From NCBI GenBank assembly GCA_019748195.1, contig JAIEPW010000008.1, forward strand, positions 1-60,023: a stretch of 60,023 nt of DNA, read 5' to 3'. Of this stretch, positions 48,186 to 60,023 are shown in pieces (position 1 is the stretch's first letter; each line of letters starts with the position of its first letter). Both the position numbers and the translations under genes were made by a program. Below the pieces are notes generated by a model. It searched no databases and was not told the origin of the DNA. It saw only the letters and a list, made by a program, of their open reading frames with translations. The stretch is from Bryobacteraceae bacterium (GTDB lineage Bacteria; Acidobacteriota; Terriglobia; Bryobacterales; Bryobacteraceae).

Positions 48186-49157
48186 TCAGTCCGTGAAATA
48201 CCAAAACTTGGGTTCGGCGCCGAGGTCTTCCTTCAGCCGGAACACTTTCTTGTTCCTCAGCACCCAGCGGATTTCGCTGTCCGGATCGAGCAGGTTGCCG
48301 AAGATGCGGGCGCCCGTGGGACACGCCTCCACGCACGCCGGATTTCCGCCGGCGCGCGACCGCTGAATGCAAAACGTGCATTTCTCGACGACGCCCTTCT
48401 GGCGCAGGCGATTGCCCAGGTAGTGCTGGTTGCGGTTCAGCTCCGCCTCCGGCACCACCGGATCCGCCCAGTTGAAGCGCCGCGCATCATAAGGGCACGC
48501 GGCCATGCAGTAGCGGCAGCCGATGCACCAGTTGTAGTCAACCACCACGATGCCGTCGGGCTCCATCCAGGTGGCCTGTACCGGACACACTTGCGTGCAC
48601 GGCGGGTTCTGGCAATGAAAGCACTGCGTTCCCACATAGAAGTGCCCGGCCGCGGGGACCTCATGGAAGTAGGCATCATCGGCGTGTTCGAAACTGATTT
48701 GTCCATGCTCCATCTCGTGGACGCGGATGTACTGCATCGCGGAGCGGCGATCCTGGTTGTTTTCCGCGATACAGGCGCGCACGCAGTCCATGTACCCCCG
48801 GCACTTGGAGATGTTGAATGCGTACCCGTACAGGACTCCGGGAACGGCATCGAGGGCGGTCACCCGGATGCGATCGGTGTTCTGAAGCTGATGGAGGCGC
48901 TCCAGGCGGCGCACCGTTTCCGTCTTTTCTTCCTCCGTCATCAGGCGGAAGTTGCCCTGGAAGTAGGCGTCCCAGTTGAGCCGCGCCTTTTCACGGCTTT
49001 CGCTGGAGGCGAACGGATTGGCGCTGGTGGCGGCGAGCCCGGCGCCGGCGGCCAGAGCGCCCGCCATCGTGAGAGCCGCCGTGCGGCGATCCACGTTCCG
49101 CTCCAGCAGTTGCTCGATGCCCTTGTTGTTCAGAATGCGGAACGAGTTGACGCTCAT
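48186..49157 (-). CDS. NrfC-like periplasmic [4Fe-4S] protein with one ligand cysteine replaced
   Basis: 323 residues with a Tat-like signal after a long n-region (DRRTAALTMAGALAAGAGLAA, 23-43). Four ferredoxin motifs: C179/182/187/191, C211/214/217/221, C260/263/275/279, and a first motif C119-x2-Y122-x2-C125-x3-C129, where Tyr stands at the second cysteine position. That leaves 15 of the expected 16 ligands. It should link NrfD to the cytochromes. Start and the preceding stop overlap as ATGA (49154-49157). Confidence 0.92.
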   Translation of the reverse strand: MSVNSFRILNNKGIEQLLERNVDRRTAALTMAGALAAGAGLAATSANPFASSESREKARLNWDAYFQGNFRLMTEEEKTETVRRLERLHQLQNTDRIRVTALDAVPGVLYGYAFNISKCRGYMDCVRACIAENNQDRRSAMQYIRVHEMEHGQISFEHADDAYFHEVPAAGHFYVGTQCFHCQNPPCTQVCPVQATWMEPDGIVVVDYNWCIGCRYCMAACPYDARRFNWADPVVPEAELNRNQHYLGNRLRQKGVVEKCTFCIQRSRAGGNPACVEACPTGARIFGNLLDPDSEIRWVLRNKKVFRLKEDLGAEPKFWYFTD

Positions 49158-49741
49158 CTGGAATCCGTCCTGGGGATCGCGGGCCAGCGCGAGGGAAGCG
49201 CCGGCGCGTGCGGGTTGTGACACGATGCGCAGTTGTTCACCACGCGTTCCGCGGCCCAGCCCGAGGCTCGCCTGCCGTGCGATCCTCCCGCCCAGTCTCG
49301 CGCCTGGGCCGCGTGGCACTGCGCGCACACCTGATAGCTGTGATTGAGGCCGACCGGCTTGCCCTGCAGCGTGCGCAGCGAGTCTGCGTCCTCCGCCGGG
49401 TGACAGGTGGCGCAGGACATCACATTCTCAGCCGCATGGCGCAATTCGACATCCCAGTGGGCCGCCTTCTTGCCCGTCTGCTTCAGTCGAAGTTGTTCGA
49501 GGGGAAGCGTGTGGCAGCTTGCGCAGGGGAATCGTTTCAGTTGCGATTTCCGCTCCGCCACCGCGAACTCGCGCACACCTTCGATTCCCTCCGCGCGAAC
49601 GCTGGCGATTCCGGATGGCGGCTTCGGAGCGGTGTCCGGCTGCGAGGCCCGGCGTACGATCGCCAGTACATGCGGATCACTGCGCGGTGGCTGAACACAG
49701 CCGGCGAGCGCTAGCCCGGTGGTCAGAAGCAGGTACTTCAC
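49154..49741 (-). CDS. Tetraheme c-type cytochrome lipoprotein
   Basis: 195 residues from GTG 49741, with GGAGG upstream and a GTGA overlap with the previous stop. Lipoprotein signal LLLTTGLALAGC. Four CxxCH sites: CASCH, CATCH, CAQCH and CASCH, with extra His near the C-terminus (NCASCHNPHAP). Likely a membrane-anchored carrier between the Fe-S protein and the NapA-facing cytochrome. An upstream open frame exists but is antisense-type noise. No close family name is certain. Confidence 0.88.
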   Translation of the reverse strand: MKYLLLTTGLALAGCVQPPRSDPHVLAIVRRASQPDTAPKPPSGIASVRAEGIEGVREFAVAERKSQLKRFPCASCHTLPLEQLRLKQTGKKAAHWDVELRHAAENVMSCATCHPAEDADSLRTLQGKPVGLNHSYQVCAQCHAAQARDWAGGSHGRRASGWAAERVVNNCASCHNPHAPALPSRWPAIPRTDSR

Positions 49742-50439
49742 GGCTGGCCTCCGGGGACGGGACGGGTGAATTCGCCTCCGGATGCCCCCGGCGCGGCGAC
49801 GGCGGCGTGGCATTGCCGGCAGTTCACGCGCTGCGGATGCGTGGACCGGATTTCGCCTACCGCCCCCGGTCCACCGTGGCAGGCGCGGCAGTTGTCGCGC
49901 ATTTGCAATCCGTGCGGAACCGGCGGAGGGCTGCCGGGAAGCGGCGCCTGCCGCGTCTCGGGCGGACGTACCGTTTGGAAGACGTTTCCGCGGAACTCGC
50001 CCTGGGACTGCTCGCCGACATGACACTGCAGACAGTTCAGAAAGTCGGGATGCGGCGTCACGGGAGTCCAAGCCTTGAACTGCCGCACATACCCGCCCTC
50101 CGCGTGGCAGGAAAGGCATCCCCCGCCTCCGAACGATCCCGGATCGAGCAACTTGTGGGGAACCGGAGGCGGGGCTCCGTCGTAAGCTCGCCGCTGGTAG
50201 AACGATGCCAGACTGCGATTCGCGTTCCTTGCGTCCGGTTCCCAACGGTATTCCCGCGCGTCCGACGGATCGCGGAAGACTCCCGATTCGAGCGGCAGTT
50301 CCGGGACCGGCTGGCTCACCGCCGCGGCCACGACAGCCGGCCGCTGGCTTTCCACCACGGTCTCCCCGAGAACGAAGATGAACGACGCCATCAGAGCCGT
50401 GGCGATCGCGATCCGGAAGTAACGAAGGCGGTCCCCCAT
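49738..50439 (-). CDS. Tetraheme c-type cytochrome, NapB-like
   Basis: 233 residues with an N-terminal anchor or signal (about 9-27). Four CxxCH sites: CLSCH, CLQCH, CRACH and CRQCH. The segments around PVPHKL, PVPHGLQMRDNCRACHGG and THPQRVNCRQCH resemble NapB, which has two hemes; this protein has twice as many. It starts four bases after the NapA stop. It would accept electrons for NapA or hand them over. Confidence 0.85.
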   Translation of the reverse strand: MGDRLRYFRIAIATALMASFIFVLGETVVESQRPAVVAAAVSQPVPELPLESGVFRDPSDAREYRWEPDARNANRSLASFYQRRAYDGAPPPVPHKLLDPGSFGGGGCLSCHAEGGYVRQFKAWTPVTPHPDFLNCLQCHVGEQSQGEFRGNVFQTVRPPETRQAPLPGSPPPVPHGLQMRDNCRACHGGPGAVGEIRSTHPQRVNCRQCHAAVAAPGASGGEFTRPVPGGQP

Positions 50440-50443
50440 TTGG

Positions 50444-52762
50444 TCAGGCCCTTTCCACCTGCACCGCGCACTTCTTGTAATCGGGCTGCTTGGAGATGGG
50501 ACAGAAGGCGTCCAGCGTCAGCTCATTGATCAGGATCGCCTCGTCGAAAAAGGGTACAAAGACATGCCCTTCCTGCGGGCGTCCGCGCCCGTCGATCTGC
50601 GCGGGCAACGTTAGCGCGCCGCGCCGCGACGTCAGCCGTACGCGATCTCCGTTGCGGATCCCCAATTTCCTCGCATCCATGGGATGAAGTTCCACGTAGG
50701 CGTTGGGCACCGCCTTATGCAGAATGGGAATGCGGCGGGTCATCGAGCCAGTGTGCCAGTGCTCCACAACACGACCCGTATTCAGCCAAAAAGGGAATTC
50801 GGCGTCCGGCTCCTCGGCGGCGGGCTCCCACGGGCGGAACCAGATCCAGGCGCGGCGATCCGGCTTGCCGTAGAAGTCGATGGGATCGCCGTTCACGGAT
50901 TTTGCGGCCGGATCGTAGCGCGCGTTGTAGCGCCACTTCGTTTCCCGGCCGCCGGGGCACGGCCACATGACTCCCGGATTTTCGCGCAGCGCCTGATACG
51001 TCGCCATCTCGTGCTTGGGGTCGTGATGGAAGCTGGTGTACTCTTTCCAGATCTCCGGGATGTGATTCTCGTAGGTCCAATTGAAGTGCTTGCCGAGGCC
51101 CATTCGGCGCGCGACTTCGATCAACTGCCAGGTGTCCGACATCGCGTCGCCCGGCGGCTTCAACATCTGTTCCCAGTGCTGAGTGCGGCGTTCCGAATTG
51201 CCGAACATTCCCTCCCGTTCAATCCACATGGCCGAAGGAAGGATCACGTCAGCGATGTCCGTGGTGGGCGTGGGGTAAACATCGGAAACCACCACGAAGC
51301 GCCCCTCCTTCCGCGCGCCTTCGCGATAGCGCTTCAGCTTCGGCATGGTCACCATCGGATTGGTCACCTGAATCCACAGGAAGCGAAGGTCGCCTCGATC
51401 CAGCGCGCGAAACATTTCCACGGTGTGGAGTCCCGGCTTGGGCTGGATGTTCTCCACCGGCACGCCCCAGATCCTGGCCGCCATCTTGCGATCGGCTTCA
51501 TTGGTGACGTCTCCGTGGGGAAGCCGATGAGTAAGCGTTCCGGCTTCCCGCACGGTGCCGCACGCACTCGGCTGGCCCGTTAGCGAAAACGGCCCGTTGC
51601 CGGGTTGCGAAATCTTGCCCGTGAGCAGGTGCAGGTTGTAGACCAGGTTCTGGATCCACGTTCCGCGCACATGCTGGTTCATGCCCATGCACCAGTAGCT
51701 GACCACCTTCTTTCCGGGATCGCCGTAGAGCGAAGCCAGATAACGGATATCGCGCGCCGGCACTCCGGAGATCTTCTCCACTTTGTCCGGGGTGTACTCT
51801 TCCAGACGCTTCACATACTCGTTGAACGTGATGTTGCGGTTCTCGTCCGTGAACTGGAACTTGTCTTGCGTTCCGTAACCGATGTTGGTCTTGCCTTCGT
51901 GGAAGCTCACATGGCGATCGAGAAACGTGCGATGAATCCACTGGTTACGGATCATTTCGTAGGCGATCGCATTGGCCAGCGCGAGGTCAGCGTTGGGCTG
52001 AAAGAGAATCGAACGGTCGGCAGCCATCGAAGTGCGGGTCCAGCGCGTGGCAAGATCCACGATCTTGACGTGGGCGTTGCGCAGGCGGCGATCCAGCATG
52101 CGGCTGAACAACACCGGGTGCATTTCCGCCATGTTGTTGCCCCACAGCACGAAAACGTCGGCATGATCGATGTCTTCGTAACAGCCCATCGGTTCATCCA
52201 GCCCGAAGGTGGTCATGAAACCGGTCACCGCGCTGGCCATGCAAAGACGCGCGTTCGCCTCGACGTTGTTAGTGCCAATGGCGCCCTTGAAAAGCTTCGA
52301 GGCGACATATCCGTCGGGGATCGTCCACTGCCCCGAACCATAAATCCCGGCGGCGTTTTTTCCGTGTTTATCGATTGTTTCCTTTAGCTTGGAAGCCACC
52401 AGATCGAGTGCTTCGCCGATCGGGACTGGAATCAGTTGTCCGTTGTTGCGAACGTACGCCCGGGTGAGGCGATCCTTGCCATAAAGGGCGATTACCGAGT
52501 GGTAGCCCTTCACGCAGCAGAGCCCCTTATTGACCGCGCTCGCGGGATCGCCTTTTACCGCCACCGCCCGGTTATCCTTGATGCCGATCAGCAATCCGCA
52601 CCCGGTGCCGCAGAACCGGCAGGGCGTTTTCTTCCACGTAAGTCCTTCGGCGGAAAGCGTTTTGGGTGTTCCCGCGGCGAACGCAACCCCCGGCGCCAAC
52701 TGGCTGGCCGCCGTCACCGCCGCAGCCGCGGCCATCGATCTGAGCGCTTCTCGCCGGGTCAT
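50444..52762 (-). CDS. napA: Periplasmic nitrate reductase catalytic subunit
   Basis: Reduces nitrate to nitrite at a Mo-bis-MGD centre. 772 residues, Tat signal (MTRREALRSMAAAAAVTAAS). [4Fe-4S] site C48-x2-C51-x3-C55 ... C83. Molybdenum-ligand Cys174 in NARLCMASAVTGFM, exactly the NapA pattern, with DEPMGCYEDIDHADVFVLWG and TGQPSACGTVREAGT also diagnostic. C-terminal cofactor-binding domain complete. It overlaps napD as ATGA (52759-52762), with GGAGGAGG upstream. Length lies between Desulfovibrio and E. coli NapA. Needs MobA (15377-15943). Confidence 0.96.
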   Translation of the reverse strand: MTRREALRSMAAAAAVTAASQLAPGVAFAAGTPKTLSAEGLTWKKTPCRFCGTGCGLLIGIKDNRAVAVKGDPASAVNKGLCCVKGYHSVIALYGKDRLTRAYVRNNGQLIPVPIGEALDLVASKLKETIDKHGKNAAGIYGSGQWTIPDGYVASKLFKGAIGTNNVEANARLCMASAVTGFMTTFGLDEPMGCYEDIDHADVFVLWGNNMAEMHPVLFSRMLDRRLRNAHVKIVDLATRWTRTSMAADRSILFQPNADLALANAIAYEMIRNQWIHRTFLDRHVSFHEGKTNIGYGTQDKFQFTDENRNITFNEYVKRLEEYTPDKVEKISGVPARDIRYLASLYGDPGKKVVSYWCMGMNQHVRGTWIQNLVYNLHLLTGKISQPGNGPFSLTGQPSACGTVREAGTLTHRLPHGDVTNEADRKMAARIWGVPVENIQPKPGLHTVEMFRALDRGDLRFLWIQVTNPMVTMPKLKRYREGARKEGRFVVVSDVYPTPTTDIADVILPSAMWIEREGMFGNSERRTQHWEQMLKPPGDAMSDTWQLIEVARRMGLGKHFNWTYENHIPEIWKEYTSFHHDPKHEMATYQALRENPGVMWPCPGGRETKWRYNARYDPAAKSVNGDPIDFYGKPDRRAWIWFRPWEPAAEEPDAEFPFWLNTGRVVEHWHTGSMTRRIPILHKAVPNAYVELHPMDARKLGIRNGDRVRLTSRRGALTLPAQIDGRGRPQEGHVFVPFFDEAILINELTLDAFCPISKQPDYKKCAVQVERA

Positions 52763-52998
52763 CCGATTTCCTCCTCCGCGTACGCCGCCACTAGCGCCAG
52801 GCCATCCAGTTCGGGTATCGCCAGCAAGCGTTGTTCGAGAGCCTGGTCCGACGCTTCCTCCGGCGTGTCCGTGATCAGAATCAGCAGTTCGCGGTTTTCG
52901 GCCGGCTCGACGGAACATCCCGGAAGCGCGGCGAGCTTTTCGGCCAGCAGCTCGCCCCAGCCTTCTTTGGGATATGCCAGGTAGCTCTTGATGGGCAT
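52759..52998 (-). CDS. napD: NapD-family chaperone
   Basis: 79 residues, ferredoxin-like small fold: IKSYLAYPKEGWGELLAEKLAALPGCSVEPA and an acidic C-terminus. NapD binds the NapA Tat signal and delays export until the cofactor is in. It opens the operon and overlaps napA. No Shine-Dalgarno sequence precedes the ATG; the predicted transcription start lies only six bases upstream. Confidence 0.85.
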   Translation of the reverse strand: MPIKSYLAYPKEGWGELLAEKLAALPGCSVEPAENRELLILITDTPEEASDQALEQRLLAIPELDGLALVAAYAEEEIG

Positions 52999-53010
52999 GA
53001 CGCTGAGTTC

Positions 53011-53053
53011 AGTTTACGGAGCGGGGTCGCGGGCGTCTGTGACTGAGGTCACC
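53011..53053 (-). promoter_or_regulatory. CRP/FNR-family site and promoter of the nap operon
   Basis: Plus-strand TGTGA-N6-TCACC (53038-53053) matches nine of ten fixed bases of the CRP consensus. On the minus strand TAAACT (53011-53016, four of six to TATAAT) would start transcription near 53004. The palindrome centre is then at -41.5, the class II activator position. The regulator itself is not in the window. Confidence 0.5.
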
Positions 53054-53131
53054 GCGCGTGAGGAATCGACAAGAGATGTCTTCTCAAGAACTTACAGAAT
53101 GGGGCTGAGGAGGGGGAGCGGGAAATGCGAA

Positions 53132-53157
53132 GCGGGGAGTTGAGATCAACTCCCCGC
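53132..53157 (-). terminator. Hairpin at the end of the photolyase-like operon
   Basis: Perfect 12-base arms (GCGGGGAGTTGA, 53132-53143, and complement 53146-53157) with GA at the centre. It overlaps the stop codon of the photolyase N-domain gene. The tail on the minus strand is only weakly T-rich. It separates this operon from the nap promoter. Confidence 0.5.
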
Positions 53158-53625
53158 CGCCGCGTCGTTCGTGTTTGACCCTGGTATTGCGACTTCCTGG
53201 TCCCCTTCGCTTCGGGGCTCCTCGAGCATAGCATAGGGCTCGACGGTGCGCCAAAACTGCGAAAAGCGTTCTAATCGCACCGTTCCAGTGAATTCCAGGA
53301 ACGGATCGTAGGCCAACACCTCTAATTGGATGCTTTGGGCAAGCTTCTGTTGGATTCGCTTCAACCGCGGGCTCGGCGTGGCGATGGTGACAATGCGATC
53401 GGCCGAATGCCGGCGTGCGAAGCCGAGAATCTCCTGGACGGCGTCACCCTTGCGGATCACGACTGGCAGCTCCAGCAGACATTCGTAGATGAATACGTAT
53501 CGCTTCAGGCTCATTACCGGCCCGGCATCATCAAACACGAAGATTGAAGGTGATTCGGGGTAGGCCATGTAAGCTGGCCCGGTGGGATGGAGACAGTCCT
53601 CGTGGACCCAGATAATCGTATTCAT
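53146..53625 (-). CDS. Photolyase/cryptochrome N-terminal-like (Rossmann) domain protein
   Basis: 159 residues resembling the alpha/beta antenna domain of photolyases: opening strand TIIWVHEDCLHPTGPAYMAY (in place of the usual WFRRDLRxxDNPAL), LELPVVIRKGDAVQEILGFARRHSADRIVTI, and later strands ending near VLAYDPFLEF. No FAD domain is attached. Its ATG overlaps the stop of the FAD-domain gene (ATGA, 53622-53625), so both are made together. The match is by pattern and context, so confidence is moderate. Confidence 0.65.
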   Translation of the reverse strand: MNTIIWVHEDCLHPTGPAYMAYPESPSIFVFDDAGPVMSLKRYVFIYECLLELPVVIRKGDAVQEILGFARRHSADRIVTIATPSPRLKRIQQKLAQSIQLEVLAYDPFLEFTGTVRLERFSQFWRTVEPYAMLEEPRSEGDQEVAIPGSNTNDAAAGS

Positions 53626-54422
53626 TGAATTTGAAAGAGCTTCTGGCTCAAGTCCTCATAGCGGCCTTCGAAGGGGCAGCTCCCGTAATGCAGGCACTGG
53701 CGGCAGTACAGGCCTTCGGTATGGCGCTCCAGGTTCTCGCGGTTGAAAAAGTACGGCTTGTTCGAGAACGTGCTGGCCACCCACTGCCACGACAAGTTGT
53801 TCGAGGCGGGATCTCCATCCAGCAGATGCTCCAGGAACCACTCCGCGCCGGCCTGCCACTGCACTTTGCGCCAATGGACAACATACGAAGCGAGCCACAT
53901 CCGCGCATGGTTGTGGAGGTATCCGGTGCGTCGCAACTCGCGGGAAAACGCGTCGATGCACGCGAGTCCCGTGGTGCCGCGCTTGATATTCACCGGCAGC
54001 TCCTCGTCGTAGCTGTCCGGCGGGAATCCAGTCTTGTACTCCTCGATGTCATCCCAGACGCCGCCGCCGAGTGTCTCGTACAAGCGCTGCCAGTATTCGC
54101 GCCAGGCGAGCTCCATGATGAACTTCGCCGCGTCCTTTCGCTGGTCCGCGCGGCGTAGGGCGAGATCGCGCACTTCCCGCAGCGTTACAACGCCGTGACG
54201 AATGTAAGGAGAAAGATACGTTACCGCTCCCGAGATGTTATTGCGGGTTGCGCCATACTTCTTCGGATCGATGTTTTCGAACAACTGTTCGGCTGCCCGG
54301 CGGCCGCCCCTTGTATCCGCTACGAAGGGCTCGAAGTTCGCAGTTTGCGGAAAAATCTCCGCCACATAGTCAATCAGATCCTGGCGATCCTGGAAATCTC
54401 TCCGCAGATCTTGGCTCACCAC
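53622..54422 (-). CDS. Stand-alone photolyase/cryptochrome FAD-binding domain
   Basis: 266 residues covering only the helical FAD domain: TRNNISGAVTYLSPYIRHGVVT, LAWREYWQRLY, NHARMWLASYVVHW and LLDGDPASNNLSWQWVASTF, with the Asn next to flavin N5 retained. Ordinary photolyases carry this after an N-terminal Rossmann domain; here that domain is a separate downstream gene. Three cysteines near the end (CRQCLHYGSCPF) recall, but do not complete, the Fe-S site of the FeS-BCP group. Start is GTG 54422 or 54419. Confidence 0.85.
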   Translation of the reverse strand: MVSQDLRRDFQDRQDLIDYVAEIFPQTANFEPFVADTRGGRRAAEQLFENIDPKKYGATRNNISGAVTYLSPYIRHGVVTLREVRDLALRRADQRKDAAKFIMELAWREYWQRLYETLGGGVWDDIEEYKTGFPPDSYDEELPVNIKRGTTGLACIDAFSRELRRTGYLHNHARMWLASYVVHWRKVQWQAGAEWFLEHLLDGDPASNNLSWQWVASTFSNKPYFFNRENLERHTEGLYCRQCLHYGSCPFEGRYEDLSQKLFQIQ

Positions 54423-54600
54423 CGGTTCCCCCGATTCCGCCGGCAGTGTTTCGGACTTACTGCCGGTCTTCTGCCGCTTGCCACCTCCCGATTCCGGGGG
54501 CGGCTTGGGCAGTGCGGTGGGAGCGTTGCTCCCACGCTTGATGGATGCGAGAGTAAGTCCGACGATCTAGAATGTACGCAAATCCCGGGAGCGGCTGTTT
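54423..54600 (-). other. Gap with open, linker-like frame and a hairpin, no start codon
   Basis: In frame with the FAD-domain gene, 48 sense codons precede GTG 54422, back to a TAG at 54567-54569. They read like a flexible linker (TALPKPPPESGGGKRQ, then a Lys/Ser/Pro/Glu stretch) but contain no ATG, GTG or TTG. A hairpin (GTGGGAGC, 54517-54524, and complement 54528-54535) lies within. It may be a decayed 5' end of the photolyase gene. Confidence 0.35.
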
Positions 54601-56172
<1,572 letters not shown>

Positions 56173-56194
56173 AGTGTGTTCCTTGTAAGAGGGA

Positions 56195-56458
56195 TCAACC
56201 TTCGACCAGGCGTTTGCCGCGCTCGAAGATGCCCGCGGCTTCATCGGCGATACCGCGGCCGCGGTCGAACAATTCGCGCCCGCGATCGTAAACGTCGGCG
56301 CCGTATTCGTTCAACTTCTCCCGGCCCTCGCGGGCCGTGGAGGCGATCCGGGAGCGGGTTTCGCTGCCCGCGTAGGGAGCGTACAGCAGCGCCACCGTGG
56401 CGCCCAGCGCGGCGCCGGCAATGAACCACAGGGCGTTCGACTCTCGAGACTTGGCCAT
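56195..56458 (-). CDS. YtxH-domain small membrane protein
   Basis: 87 residues: one hydrophobic helix (LWFIAGAALGATVALLYAP, 10-28) ending in the YtxH motif LLYAPYAGSETR, then an amphipathic charged helix region. The family is stress-associated and of unknown mechanism. It ends 22 bases before pruA. Confidence 0.85.
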   Translation of the reverse strand: MAKSRESNALWFIAGAALGATVALLYAPYAGSETRSRIASTAREGREKLNEYGADVYDRGRELFDRGRGIADEAAGIFERGKRLVEG

Positions 56459-56524
56459 GATGAGATCTCCTCGAAATCCGATTGTATCGCGCTTGGAGGA
56501 AGCCCTTTGGTATATGCTCGAAGG

Positions 56525-57019
56525 ATGCCGGAGATGGTCACCGTATATCGATCGGCGGAAGCCGGGAAACGCCAGGAAGCGGCTGAGGTTCAGGCCCTGC
56601 TGCAGGGCGAAAACCTGGACGCGGAGATCTTTGACGACAACGCCCCGGGAGTGCCGGAGGGCGCAATCGAGGTGCGGGTGCCCGCCGGGCAGGAGAGCCG
56701 CGCCGAGGAAATCATCGCCGCCAATCCCGTGCCGCCGCTCAACGAATCACACGACCTGGACCTGGTAACCGTGTTTCATCAGCCGGCGGGCGCTTCGCAG
56801 GAAAGCGAAGCAATGATTATCAAAGGCTTGCTGGAATCCAACGGCATTTATGCCGTGATCACGGAGGGGGCGATGCTGCCCAACACCTCGGCGCAGGTCC
56901 GGGTCGCCCGGGATCAGGAACAGGAGGCACGGCGCATCCTGGCTGAGGCGCAGGCGTCCGGAGCGCAGGCGGCCGAGGAAGCGTCGGGAGCCGAGGGGCA
57001 GGAACGCGTCCCCGAATAA
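56525..57019 (+). CDS. Protein with two DUF2007-like domains
   Basis: 164 residues from ATG 56525. Two similar modules, about 4-65 (VTVYRSAEAGKRQEAAEVQALLQ) and 80-145 (VTVFHQPAGASQESEAMIIKGLLE), each a small ferredoxin-like fold of the DUF2007 (putative signal transducing protein) type. An acidic Ala/Glu tail follows. ATG 56534 is an equally good start; the longer frame from 56507 is less likely. Divergent from the ytxH gene. Confidence 0.78.
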   Translation: MPEMVTVYRSAEAGKRQEAAEVQALLQGENLDAEIFDDNAPGVPEGAIEVRVPAGQESRAEEIIAANPVPPLNESHDLDLVTVFHQPAGASQESEAMIIKGLLESNGIYAVITEGAMLPNTSAQVRVARDQEQEARRILAEAQASGAQAAEEASGAEGQERVPE

Positions 57020-57130
57020 TGGAATAGCGAAACGCTCTTACTGAGTCTCACCCGAGTTGCGCCTGCCAGGCAAAAAGAGTAACAATGCGACGGATCTGAG
57101 CGCCTTATCGTCTCCGGAGTCTCCGCATAT

Positions 57131-60023
57131 ATGAAAACTGCTGTTTTTGCCTTGCTGGCCGCCGTTGCCCTGCTTGCCCAATCGCCCGCCGATCTCTTGA
57201 AAAACATGCGCTTCCGCGAAATCGGACCCGCCAGCATGGGGGGCCGCATCAATGATGTCGCGGTGGTGGAGTCCGACCCCAGGATCGTCTACGTGGCCAC
57301 GGCCTCGGCCGGCGTGTGGCGAACGGTCAATTCGGGCACCACCTGGGAGCCGCTATTCGATCATCAGCCGGTCCACTCGATCGGCGACATCGCCATCGCC
57401 CCCTCCGACCCGTCGGTGATCTGGGCCGGCAGCGGCGAATCCAACAACCGCCAATCCTCCAGTTGGGGAAACGGGGTTTACAAATCCACCGACGGCGGCA
57501 AGACCTGGGCGCACATGGGGCTGAAGGACACCCATCACATCGGCCGGGTGGTGATCCACCCGCGCGATCCCAACGTGGTGTACGTGGCCGCTGCAGGGCG
57601 CCTCTGGGGCGCCAACGGGGAGCGCGGCGTTTTCAAAACCACCGACGGGGGCAAGATCTGGAACAAAGTCCTGTTCGTGGACGCCGACACAGGAGTCAAT
57701 GACCTGGCGATGGACCCGCAATCGCCGGATACGCTGTATGCGGGCGCTTATCAGCGCCGTCGGACCCCGTGGGGCTTCAACGGCGGCGGACCCGGCAGCG
57801 GGCTTTATAAATCCACCGACGGCGGCGCCACCTGGAAGAAGCTGACCACCGGCCTGCCCGAAGGCGACATGGGCCGCATCGGGGTCAACATCTACCGTCG
57901 CAATTCGGGTATCGTTTACGCGCTGATCGAACACGCGCGCGGCGGTATCTACCGCAGCGAGAACAAGGGCGAGACGTGGGTGAAAATGAGCGACACCAAC
58001 CCCCGCCCGATGTACTACTCGCAGGTGCACATCGACCCGAACAACGATCAGCGGGTATGGGTGCTGGGCGCCGACATGTTCTATTCCGAGGACGGCGGCA
58101 AGACGTTTGTCACCAACCGCGTGCAACGAATCCACGGGGACTATCACGCGCTGTGGATCAACCCCAACGACTCCAACCACATGTTTGCCGGCTCCGACGG
58201 CGGGCTGCACTTCAGCTACGACGCGGGACGCACATGGATCTTCACCAACAACGTCGCGCTCGGCCAGTTCTATGAGATCGGCGTAGACATGCAGCGCCCC
58301 TATCGCATCTGCGGCGGGCTGCAGGACAATAACTCCTGGTGCGGACCTTCGATGTCCTTCGAGGCGCGCGGCATTTCCAACGATGAGTGGTTCCAGGTGG
58401 GCGGCGGCGACGGCTTCTACTCCCAGATGGACCCCGAAGAGCCGTGGATCGTTTATGCGGAGTCTCAGGACGGGAACCTGCTGCGGCGCGATCTGCGAAC
58501 GCATGAGTCTCGCTCCATCCGGCCTCGCGAGAAGCCCGGCGAGGCCCGTTACCGCTTCCAGTGGAACTCCCCGCTGGTAATCTCCCGTCACGATCGCAAG
58601 ACGCTCTACTACGGCGGAAACTTCGTGTTCAAGTCCACCGATCAGGGCAATTCCTGGACGAAATCCTCGCCGGAACTCACCAGCGGGATGGATCGCGACA
58701 AGCAGCCGATCATGGGCAAGCTGCCGGATCGCACCATGCTGTCGCGGCATGACGGCGTGCAGGCGTTTCCGGCGTCCACCACGCTGAGCGAATCGCCGAT
58801 GCGCGCCGGAATCGTCTGGGCGGGCACCGACGACGGCAACCTGCACGTCACCCGCGACGGCGAGACTTGGAAGAATGTGATCGCCAACGTTCCCGGCGTT
58901 CCCAAGGGGACGTACGTAAGCCGCGTGGTCGCCTCCAAGTTCGCGGAAGGGCGCGCCTACGCCACTTTCGACGGCCACCGCGGCGATGACTTCAACATCT
59001 ACATCTACGCCACCGAGGACTTCGGGGAAAGCTGGAAGCCCATTACCAACGGCATTCCCGCGTCCGGCGGCGTGATCAACGTAATCCGGGAGCACACGCG
59101 CAATCAGAACCTGCTGTTCGCCGGCGGCGAGTTCGGGCTCTATGTCAGCCTGGATCGGGGCGCGAACTGGTTCGAGCTGAAAAACAATCTGCCGCGCGTC
59201 GCGGTGGATGACATCGTAGTGCATCCGCGCGACAATGACCTGATCCTCGGCACGCACGGCCGCTCCATCTGGATCCTCGACAACCTGCACGCGTTGGAAC
59301 AAATGACCCCGCAGGTGATGGCCAGCGATCTGCACCTGTTCGACACGCGTCCTGCCACCATGTGGAGGCTCGCCAACCGCCGGGGAAACACGGGGCATCT
59401 TTACTACCTCGGCCAGAATCCAGCGTACGGAGCAACACTGGACTACTGGCTGAAGGCCAAGACCGAAGCCCGCGATCTGCGTGTGGAGATCCTGGACAAG
59501 TCGGGAAAGGTAATCCGGACGCTGCAGCGTCCGGGGGGTGACGCCGGCTACAACCGCGTGGTTTGGGACCTGCGGATGGAGCGTCCGAACCCGCCCACCG
59601 AGGAAGAGCTCCGCGTCCTGGAAGAACAGGGCGGACGCGGCCGCTTTGGAGGCGGCGGTGGGCCGTTGGTGGATCCGGGCGTGTACACGGTGAGAATCTC
59701 GGCCTCCGGAAAAACGGTGCACAAGCCGCTGGTGGTCGAGGAAGATCCTCGCATCACGTGGTTCTCTTCCGCCGATCGCCAGAAGCGGACCACGGCGATT
59801 ACCGAGCTCTACCAGATGTCCAAACAGGCGGACGCCGCGCAACGCCGCTTCAATGCGATCTCCAACTCTCTTCGCGCGACCATCGAAAGCTGGAATCGTA
59901 CCGGGGCGCCCGCGCTGCCGGAGAACGTCAAGGCCGCCGCGGAGGAGCTTCGCAAGAAGGTGAACGACATGCGGTCGAGCTTCGGCGGCGGATTCGGATT
60001 CGGCGGCGGTGGCGGGCGCGGCG
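57131..60023 (+). CDS. Exported BNR/Asp-box (VPS10/sortilin-like) repeat protein, 3' end outside window
   Basis: Signal peptide (MKTAVFALLAAVALLAQS), then a long beta-propeller region with at least ten Asp-boxes (STDGGKTW, TTDGGKIW, STDGGATW, SENKGETW, SEDGGKTF, SYDAGRTW, STDQGNSW, TEDFGESW and others). The pattern matches the sortilin/VPS10 and glycosyl-hydrolase-BNR proteins common in Acidobacteria and Bacteroidetes. A FlgD/Ig-like segment (YNRVVWDLRMERPNPPTEEE) follows at about 790-870, then helices and a Gly/Phe-rich stretch at the edge. 964 codons are visible. Ligand or substrate unknown. Confidence 0.88.
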   Translation, partial: MKTAVFALLAAVALLAQSPADLLKNMRFREIGPASMGGRINDVAVVESDPRIVYVATASAGVWRTVNSGTTWEPLFDHQPVHSIGDIAIAPSDPSVIWAGSGESNNRQSSSWGNGVYKSTDGGKTWAHMGLKDTHHIGRVVIHPRDPNVVYVAAAGRLWGANGERGVFKTTDGGKIWNKVLFVDADTGVNDLAMDPQSPDTLYAGAYQRRRTPWGFNGGGPGSGLYKSTDGGATWKKLTTGLPEGDMGRIGVNIYRRNSGIVYALIEHARGGIYRSENKGETWVKMSDTNPRPMYYSQVHIDPNNDQRVWVLGADMFYSEDGGKTFVTNRVQRIHGDYHALWINPNDSNHMFAGSDGGLHFSYDAGRTWIFTNNVALGQFYEIGVDMQRPYRICGGLQDNNSWCGPSMSFEARGISNDEWFQVGGGDGFYSQMDPEEPWIVYAESQDGNLLRRDLRTHESRSIRPREKPGEARYRFQWNSPLVISRHDRKTLYYGGNFVFKSTDQGNSWTKSSPELTSGMDRDKQPIMGKLPDRTMLSRHDGVQAFPASTTLSESPMRAGIVWAGTDDGNLHVTRDGETWKNVIANVPGVPKGTYVSRVVASKFAEGRAYATFDGHRGDDFNIYIYATEDFGESWKPITNGIPASGGVINVIREHTRNQNLLFAGGEFGLYVSLDRGANWFELKNNLPRVAVDDIVVHPRDNDLILGTHGRSIWILDNLHALEQMTPQVMASDLHLFDTRPATMWRLANRRGNTGHLYYLGQNPAYGATLDYWLKAKTEARDLRVEILDKSGKVIRTLQRPGGDAGYNRVVWDLRMERPNPPTEEELRVLEEQGGRGRFGGGGGPLVDPGVYTVRISASGKTVHKPLVVEEDPRITWFSSADRQKRTTAITELYQMSKQADAAQRRFNAISNSLRATIESWNRTGAPALPENVKAAAEELRKKVNDMRSSFGGGFGFGGGGGRG

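Follow-up and report, generated by a model that had tools for sequence, protein, structure and literature searches.

The window, that is the whole stretch of 60,023 nucleotides from a Bryobacteraceae bacterium (Acidobacteriota) analysed here, carries on its minus strand two overlapping genes, of which the first encodes a photolyase FAD-binding protein and the second a smaller protein that we assign, from the profile of its family, to the alpha/beta domain of photolyases. The features of the pair are the following.

53622..54422, minus strand: putative catalytic subunit, a photolyase FAD-binding protein of the SPL/Phr4 type, 266 amino acids (FAD_binding_7, alignment, relatives)
53146..53625, minus strand: putative partner subunit, a stand-alone photolyase alpha/beta (antenna-type) domain of the Phr5 type, 159 amino acids (family profile)
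53622..53625, minus strand: ATGA stop/start overlap of both genes (sequence)
53676..53705, minus strand: C240, C243 and C249, ligands of a putative 4Fe-4S cluster (alignment)
53958..53960, minus strand: C155, fourth putative Fe-S ligand (spacing as in RS9916 Phr4)

At the coordinates that a first-pass annotation of this DNA had given, we found both frames open and intact. The FAD frame ends in CTC TTT CAA ATT CAA TGA and the ATG of the partner overlaps this stop codon, which bears out the ATGA overlap described in that annotation. Two adjacent GTG codons, at 54422 and 54419, could start the FAD protein, and we favour the latter because some relatives begin with M-S-x-x-L-R-R. It had also been proposed that the FAD-binding domain is encoded first; indeed, the 266-residue protein matches Pfam FAD_binding_7 (E 8.1e-28, 97.7 bits, cut-off 27), and the N-terminal domain is absent from the chain. 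The photolyase of A. nidulans aligns with it across residues 58-223. Its identity to relatives is 41-60% in our nine-row alignment of FAD proteins (A1) and 48-63% in 80 loci, the best 80 of at least 586 relatives from a scan of a species-level genome collection. It further matches phrog_25969 (unknown function, E 2.5e-33); in a viral contig collection, searched as a check on phage origin, relatives of A1 or of the partner alignment A2 were not confirmed. No other FAD_binding_7 match was found in the bacterium's own genome.

Residues of the FAD protein

In 89 aligned rows, which hold three repeats (L003, L004 and L007 are the same sequences as L061, L072 and L083), R108, N171, D202 and N208 are found in every row, D204 in 88, E104 in 86 and M175 in 82, with Leu in place of M175 in the other seven. 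In 6 of the 89, Phe takes the place of the first Trp in the WQW motif. Presumably, the lesion contacts are made from within the conserved set R108, N171, M175, D202, D204 and N208. N171 and M175 are the same in all seven one-chain reference rows, the position of E104 is Q in six of these seven and is thus not discriminating, and position 172 is His in 89/89 rows versus Arg in 7/7 reference rows. Eukaryotic (6-4) enzymes carry a His pair at the lesion site; with its Asn/Met pair, the lesion site of the window protein looks CPD-type, unlike this His pair. The roles of the flavin residues were taken from the relevant passages of PMC9426592.

The four cysteines C155, C240, C243 and C249 have the spacing 85/3/6 of C169, C254, C257 and C263 in RS9916 Phr4, and we regard a 4Fe-4S cluster in the FAD protein as putative on these grounds. 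C240, C243 and C249 are invariant in all nine rows of A1, and the set of four is complete in 68 of the 89 rows. The 21 rows that lack one or more of the cysteines include most proteobacterial pairs and three pairs from Chloroflexi, which are also split, so that the cluster would be separable from the split design. Split pairs without some or all of the cysteines were seen at L082, L087, L089 and at most of the split loci between L090 and L112. As a set, the cysteines are absent from the seven one-chain reference rows and, to our knowledge, class I CPD photolyases (1owl/1tez, 1dnp) have no Fe-S cysteines.

The partner protein and the photolyase alpha/beta domain

Taken as a single sequence, the 159-residue protein matches PF00875, the DNA photolyase N domain, below the threshold (E 0.035, 14.5 bits, cut-off 26.6), which is no proof by itself. 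It has no meaningful match in the PDB (best E 0.51) and matched no NCBIfam family, and an AlphaFold model computed from the single sequence without an alignment had a mean pLDDT of 43 and was not used. The family profile carries further, and with it the earlier suggestion that a domain like the N-terminal one of photolyases is encoded second holds. The profile was built from an alignment (A2) of 27 partners encoded at split loci, which are 25-53% identical to the window protein. Searched against 177,635 distinct PDB sequences, it gave a single match at E <= 0.01, the alpha/beta domain of a cryptochrome (8p4x, E 2.1e-4). Ten of the 27 members, scanned singly, match PF00875 at E <= 0.01 (best 1.4e-5), the window member not being among them, and one matches DPRP (PF04244, E 0.0025). 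By hhalign, A2 aligns over 98 columns with N domains taken from 13 one-chain photolyases, with a probability of 93.9 and an E-value, to be read as that of a single comparison, of 1.5e-7; the controls gave probabilities of 0.5 for reversed alignments and 3.1 for the FAD alignment A1. On the basis of these comparisons, we judge the assignment of the 159-residue family to the photolyase alpha/beta domain to be good.

The 13 one-chain photolyases were found via their FAD half, and the starts of their N domains were taken from hits of an iterated partner profile. This first profile had been iterated until ordinary photolyases were recruited, so its matches to them are circular; independent of it are the tests made with A2, namely those against the PDB and PF00875 and, below, the search of 12 genomes, the genome samples and the recount of loci. 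In an NCBIfam scan of four of the 13, class I or plant-cryptochrome models were nearest, all below their cut-offs, and we term the reference photolyases 'class I/III type' because of this.

The first-pass annotation had supposed an interface between the two products, on which a fused orthologue bears by inference. A natural fusion from Synechococcus (L078, 453 residues), folded with a 53-row alignment, reached a mean pLDDT of 91.5 and a pTM of 0.91, and in a two-domain protein of this length such a pTM implies that the relative placement of the domains is predicted with confidence, in the Synechococcus protein and not in the window chains themselves. In the C-terminal part of the model strands and helices alternate, with five strands, as expected for the photolyase alpha/beta fold. 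A structural comparison with Foldseek and VIA-align covered mainly residues 8-287, the FAD half, and in effect tests this half alone.

Distribution of the two proteins

Is the reversed and split arrangement found beyond this contig? The 60 relative genomes contain five relatives (L003-L007) that are at least 54% identical, and each of them has the partner directly downstream; L023, whose partial match holds two internal stops, is left out of this number. The 80 loci, being the best 80 of at least 586 relatives, are by construction the closest to the window, and more distant SPLs lie outside their scope. Among them, 62 are split with a downstream partner, six are FAD-first fusions and in the flank of the other 12 there is no partner. 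The partner thus stands downstream in five of five close relatives and at 62 of these 80 loci, and the reversed-order pair is beyond chance. An overlap of four bases (-4) is common to many of the 62 split pairs. The organism titles of some loci, e.g. L072, L097 and L046, are perhaps not those of the true organism.

A recount of the 80 with a non-iterated partner profile returned the same 68 loci with a partner, 67 of them above 70 bits and L071, which lies at a contig end, with 45 bits. In all 12 genomes without a neighbouring partner, a partner match was found elsewhere in the genome (on another contig in 10 of them, and at a distance from the SPL of about 36 kb and about 6 kb in the other two), in a search that included two further genomes as positive controls. 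The downstream sequence at these 12 loci exceeds 3.9 kb in eight, is 1.3-1.5 kb long in three and measures 160 bases at L043, where the SPL lies at a contig end; the partner match in this genome is partial, and the neighbour may have been cut off by the contig end. Among the 80 loci, there was no genome that was shown to be without a partner.

The first-pass annotation had advised looking for fused or split versions in other genomes; both exist, and both have the same FAD-first order. On Deinococcus plasmids we found three FAD-first fusions (L029, L030, L132) and one split pair with a four-base overlap (L031). A quick tree of 102 rows, which has two long branches and in which 37 of 96 inner branches are weak, requires at least four changes between the fused and the two-gene state.

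Some relatives appear to have a three-gene photolyase operon, with a third photolyase-like gene 3' of the partner in L004 and L006 (there with an overlap) and also in L070 and L075. On a Persicobacter plasmid, L133 is an FAD-first single chain on a very long branch, and its C-terminal region, which ends in FFAYWKKARK, bears a weak likeness to the partner family.

We then compared the occurrence of both proteins over genome samples, in which a limited number of candidates was scored per genome, so that misses are possible, and in which the two centre genomes (G000 and G074, both with the pair) are counted. Among 244 cyanobacteria, A1 matched 48 genomes at E <= 1e-45, 47 with at least 297 bits and G493 with 230 bits, and A2 matched at E <= 1e-12 exactly the 47 strong ones, G493 being absent. 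Among 396 Acidobacteriota, A1 matched seven genomes at E <= 1e-50, four of them with at least 335 bits, and the genomes with A2 were exactly those four. Score and frame length were the only criteria by which the weak A1 matches without A2 (G493; G223, G231 and G255) were classed as NewPHL-like and left out. A hypergeometric treatment of the overlap of genome sets ignores shared ancestry and is not to be read as a probability.

The two genes need not be neighbours. Of the 47 cyanobacterial pairs, 30 are adjacent with the partner downstream (within 1 kb) and two share a strand at a distance of no more than 2 kb; eight are more than 470 kb apart on one contig and seven on different contigs. In three of the four Acidobacteriota, about 1 Mb or more separates the two genes; in one of these three (G170) the distance is about 1.4 Mb, and the SPL and the partner (L137, L138) are both intact and have unrelated neighbours. 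Genes at such distances cannot be joined by a ribosomal frameshift, and in those lineages the alpha/beta protein is therefore a separate chain. The matching genome sets, together with the often unlinked genes, speak for an enzyme of two chains and not for a frameshift fusion; they also argue against this SPL group simply being without an alpha/beta domain.

A probable two-subunit photolyase and its alternatives

The reversed split layout has already been published for picocyanobacteria. According to section 5 and further passages of PMC9426592, phr4 and phr5 lie side by side, their domain order is reversed and four cysteines are present, and phr6 is the fusion of the two. The window pair is alike to Phr4/Phr5 (split) and Phr6 (fused) of marine Synechococcus and Cyanobium in the FAD-first order, and to Phr4/Phr5 also in the adjacency of the genes and in the four identically spaced cysteines; it differs in its ATGA overlap, the phr4 and phr5 frames being seven G-C pairs apart, and in its host, an acidobacterium instead of a picocyanobacterium. 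We file it as being of the Phr4/Phr5 kind from its cyanobacterial relatives and the published description of the RS9916 proteins. Unlinked pairs are not mentioned in that section and those passages, and among the matches listed, none of the other papers dealt with a split reversed photolyase or with unlinked partners, subscription papers and preprints lying outside this search.

The FAD protein is also close to the SPLs, which are described in passages of PMC9649867, PMC9498864 and PMC9178010. It resembles the SPL of Xu et al. 2021, as rendered by citing papers, as a single FAD-domain chain related to class I/III with Fe-S cysteines; SPLs are described as lacking an alpha/beta domain (so in the passage of PMC9649867), whereas in the window this domain would be the product of the overlapping second gene, a situation on which these descriptions are silent. 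In NewPHL/Phr7 (Emmerich et al. 2020, likewise via citing papers), an N-terminal FAD domain is followed by a second, C-terminal domain, as in the order of the window, but NewPHL is a single chain with a C-terminal Z domain and the window has two chains. The C-terminal regions of five rows labelled NewPHL-like are weakly similar to the partner family (hhalign probability 27.7), and none of the five has the complete set of four cysteines. A passage of PMC13274461 places NewPHLs and SPLs together and ascribes to them an inverted topology and CPD repair in single-stranded DNA. The FAD domain of class I CPD photolyases (A. nidulans 1owl/1tez, E. coli 1dnp) is homologous, and its flavin and lesion residues are largely kept in the window protein; these enzymes are one chain with the alpha/beta domain first, whereas the window has two chains with FAD first. 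The prokaryotic (6-4) photolyase FeS-BCP was considered as a candidate and ruled against by the absence of its DPRP domain: PF04244 gave no match at E <= 1 to either window protein and no match in the own genome.

In our view the two genes probably form an operon with coupled translation, whose products make up a two-subunit short photolyase of the Fe-S type and the Phr4/Phr5 kind, likely a CPD-repairing heterodimer. The first product would carry the FAD, the lesion pocket and the putative 4Fe-4S cluster. The second would be the domain that is N-terminal in ordinary photolyases, here made as a chain of its own; it would dock on the catalytic subunit and may stabilise the fold, hold an antenna pigment, or both. 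For the heterodimer, the most likely reaction would be repair of cyclobutane pyrimidine dimers driven by blue/UV-A light. Proteins that are fused to each other repeatedly, as these two are in several lineages, are usually interacting partners. We infer that the two window chains associate physically and that their translation is coupled. Of the earlier suggestion of a heterodimeric photolyase or light sensor, the heterodimeric photolyase is thus supported, and nothing favours a light sensor over repair. An antenna role of the alpha/beta chain is conceivable; a search of the own genome for FO synthase, which belongs to the 8-HDF antenna, gave two CofH matches (341.6 and 333.7 bits) below the cut-off of 374.1, which could be other radical SAM enzymes.

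Could the two genes instead yield one polypeptide by programmed frameshifting across the overlap? For phr4/phr5, the cited passages of PMC9426592 give heterodimer and frameshift as alternatives, and natural single-chain fusions in the same order as well as the short overlap would fit the latter. The distant genes in 15 of 47 cyanobacteria (eight beyond 470 kb, seven on another contig) and three of four Acidobacteriota speak against it, as does the window itself, where a classical slippery heptamer before the stop was not seen by eye. Frameshifting is excluded for the distant pairs and, though not strictly so for the window pair, we hold it to be very improbable there. That the FAD protein acts by itself as a complete short photolyase, with the alpha/beta protein a functionally separate neighbour such as a light or nucleotide sensor, appears improbable to a somewhat lesser degree. 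Since citing papers call SPLs CPD repair enzymes without an alpha/beta domain, the FAD protein may work alone, and the fast divergence of the partner (down to 25% and at most 53% identity to the window protein in A2) agrees with this; against it stand the identical genome sets (47/47 and 4/4) and the fact that in several lineages the FAD protein is fused to this same partner. If an ordinary photolyase gene had been broken, rearranged and degraded, the sub-threshold PF00875 match of the 159-residue protein would be accounted for, yet both frames are intact, the motifs are conserved and the architecture recurs at 62 of the 80 loci (best 80 of at least 586) in several phyla, which makes this reading practically negligible.

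A (6-4) photolyase or a blue-light receptor in place of a CPD photolyase is unlikely, though the least unlikely of these alternatives. The four-cysteine motif is of the kind found in FeS-BCP (6-4) photolyases, and (6-4) repair was predicted for Phr4/Phr5 in the passages of PMC9426592, where loss of phr4 lowered survival after UV-C and not after UV-B. E. coli with phr4/phr5 survived UV-C better in the same source, with a light/dark difference that was not significant, an outcome that does not look like photorepair. The own genome, moreover, has one PF00875 protein (L134, contig C139) that is class II-like (TIGR00591, 452.6 bits, cut-off 550.05), so that CPD repair alone would be redundant. Against the (6-4) reading, N171 and M175 at the lesion site are as in the one-chain reference photolyases, and SPLs are called CPD-repairing by the papers that cite Xu et al. 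2021. CPD repair by the window pair is accordingly a prediction from residues and family that we prefer.

Given the published picocyanobacterial layout, the window pair is a further case, in Acidobacteriota. The new findings suggest that, in several phyla, the alpha/beta partner is regularly present as a subunit encoded by its own gene. A regular separate partner questions the description of SPLs as lacking this domain, a description tied to the proposal, by Xu et al. 2021 and cited in PMC9649867 and PMC9498864, that SPLs are ancestral. The matching genome sets and the distant genes also turn the frameshift-or-heterodimer question of 2022 into a clear prediction of two chains. We go further only tentatively, at slightly less than even confidence, in speculating that SPLs as a class, the published single-domain examples among them, are obligate two-subunit photolyases whose alpha/beta subunit, provided in trans, was overlooked. 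If so, SPLs would not be relics that never had an alpha/beta domain, the argument for them as single-domain ancestors of the photolyase/cryptochrome family would lose its footing, and there would be naturally heterodimeric photolyases that were fused several times, always FAD-first in the cases seen.

Around the pair, Rfam gave nothing at the gathering threshold over window positions 50000..57500. Downstream, at 49154..52918 on the minus strand, lie genes for a molybdopterin oxidoreductase (NapA-like) and for heme-motif proteins, named by eye.
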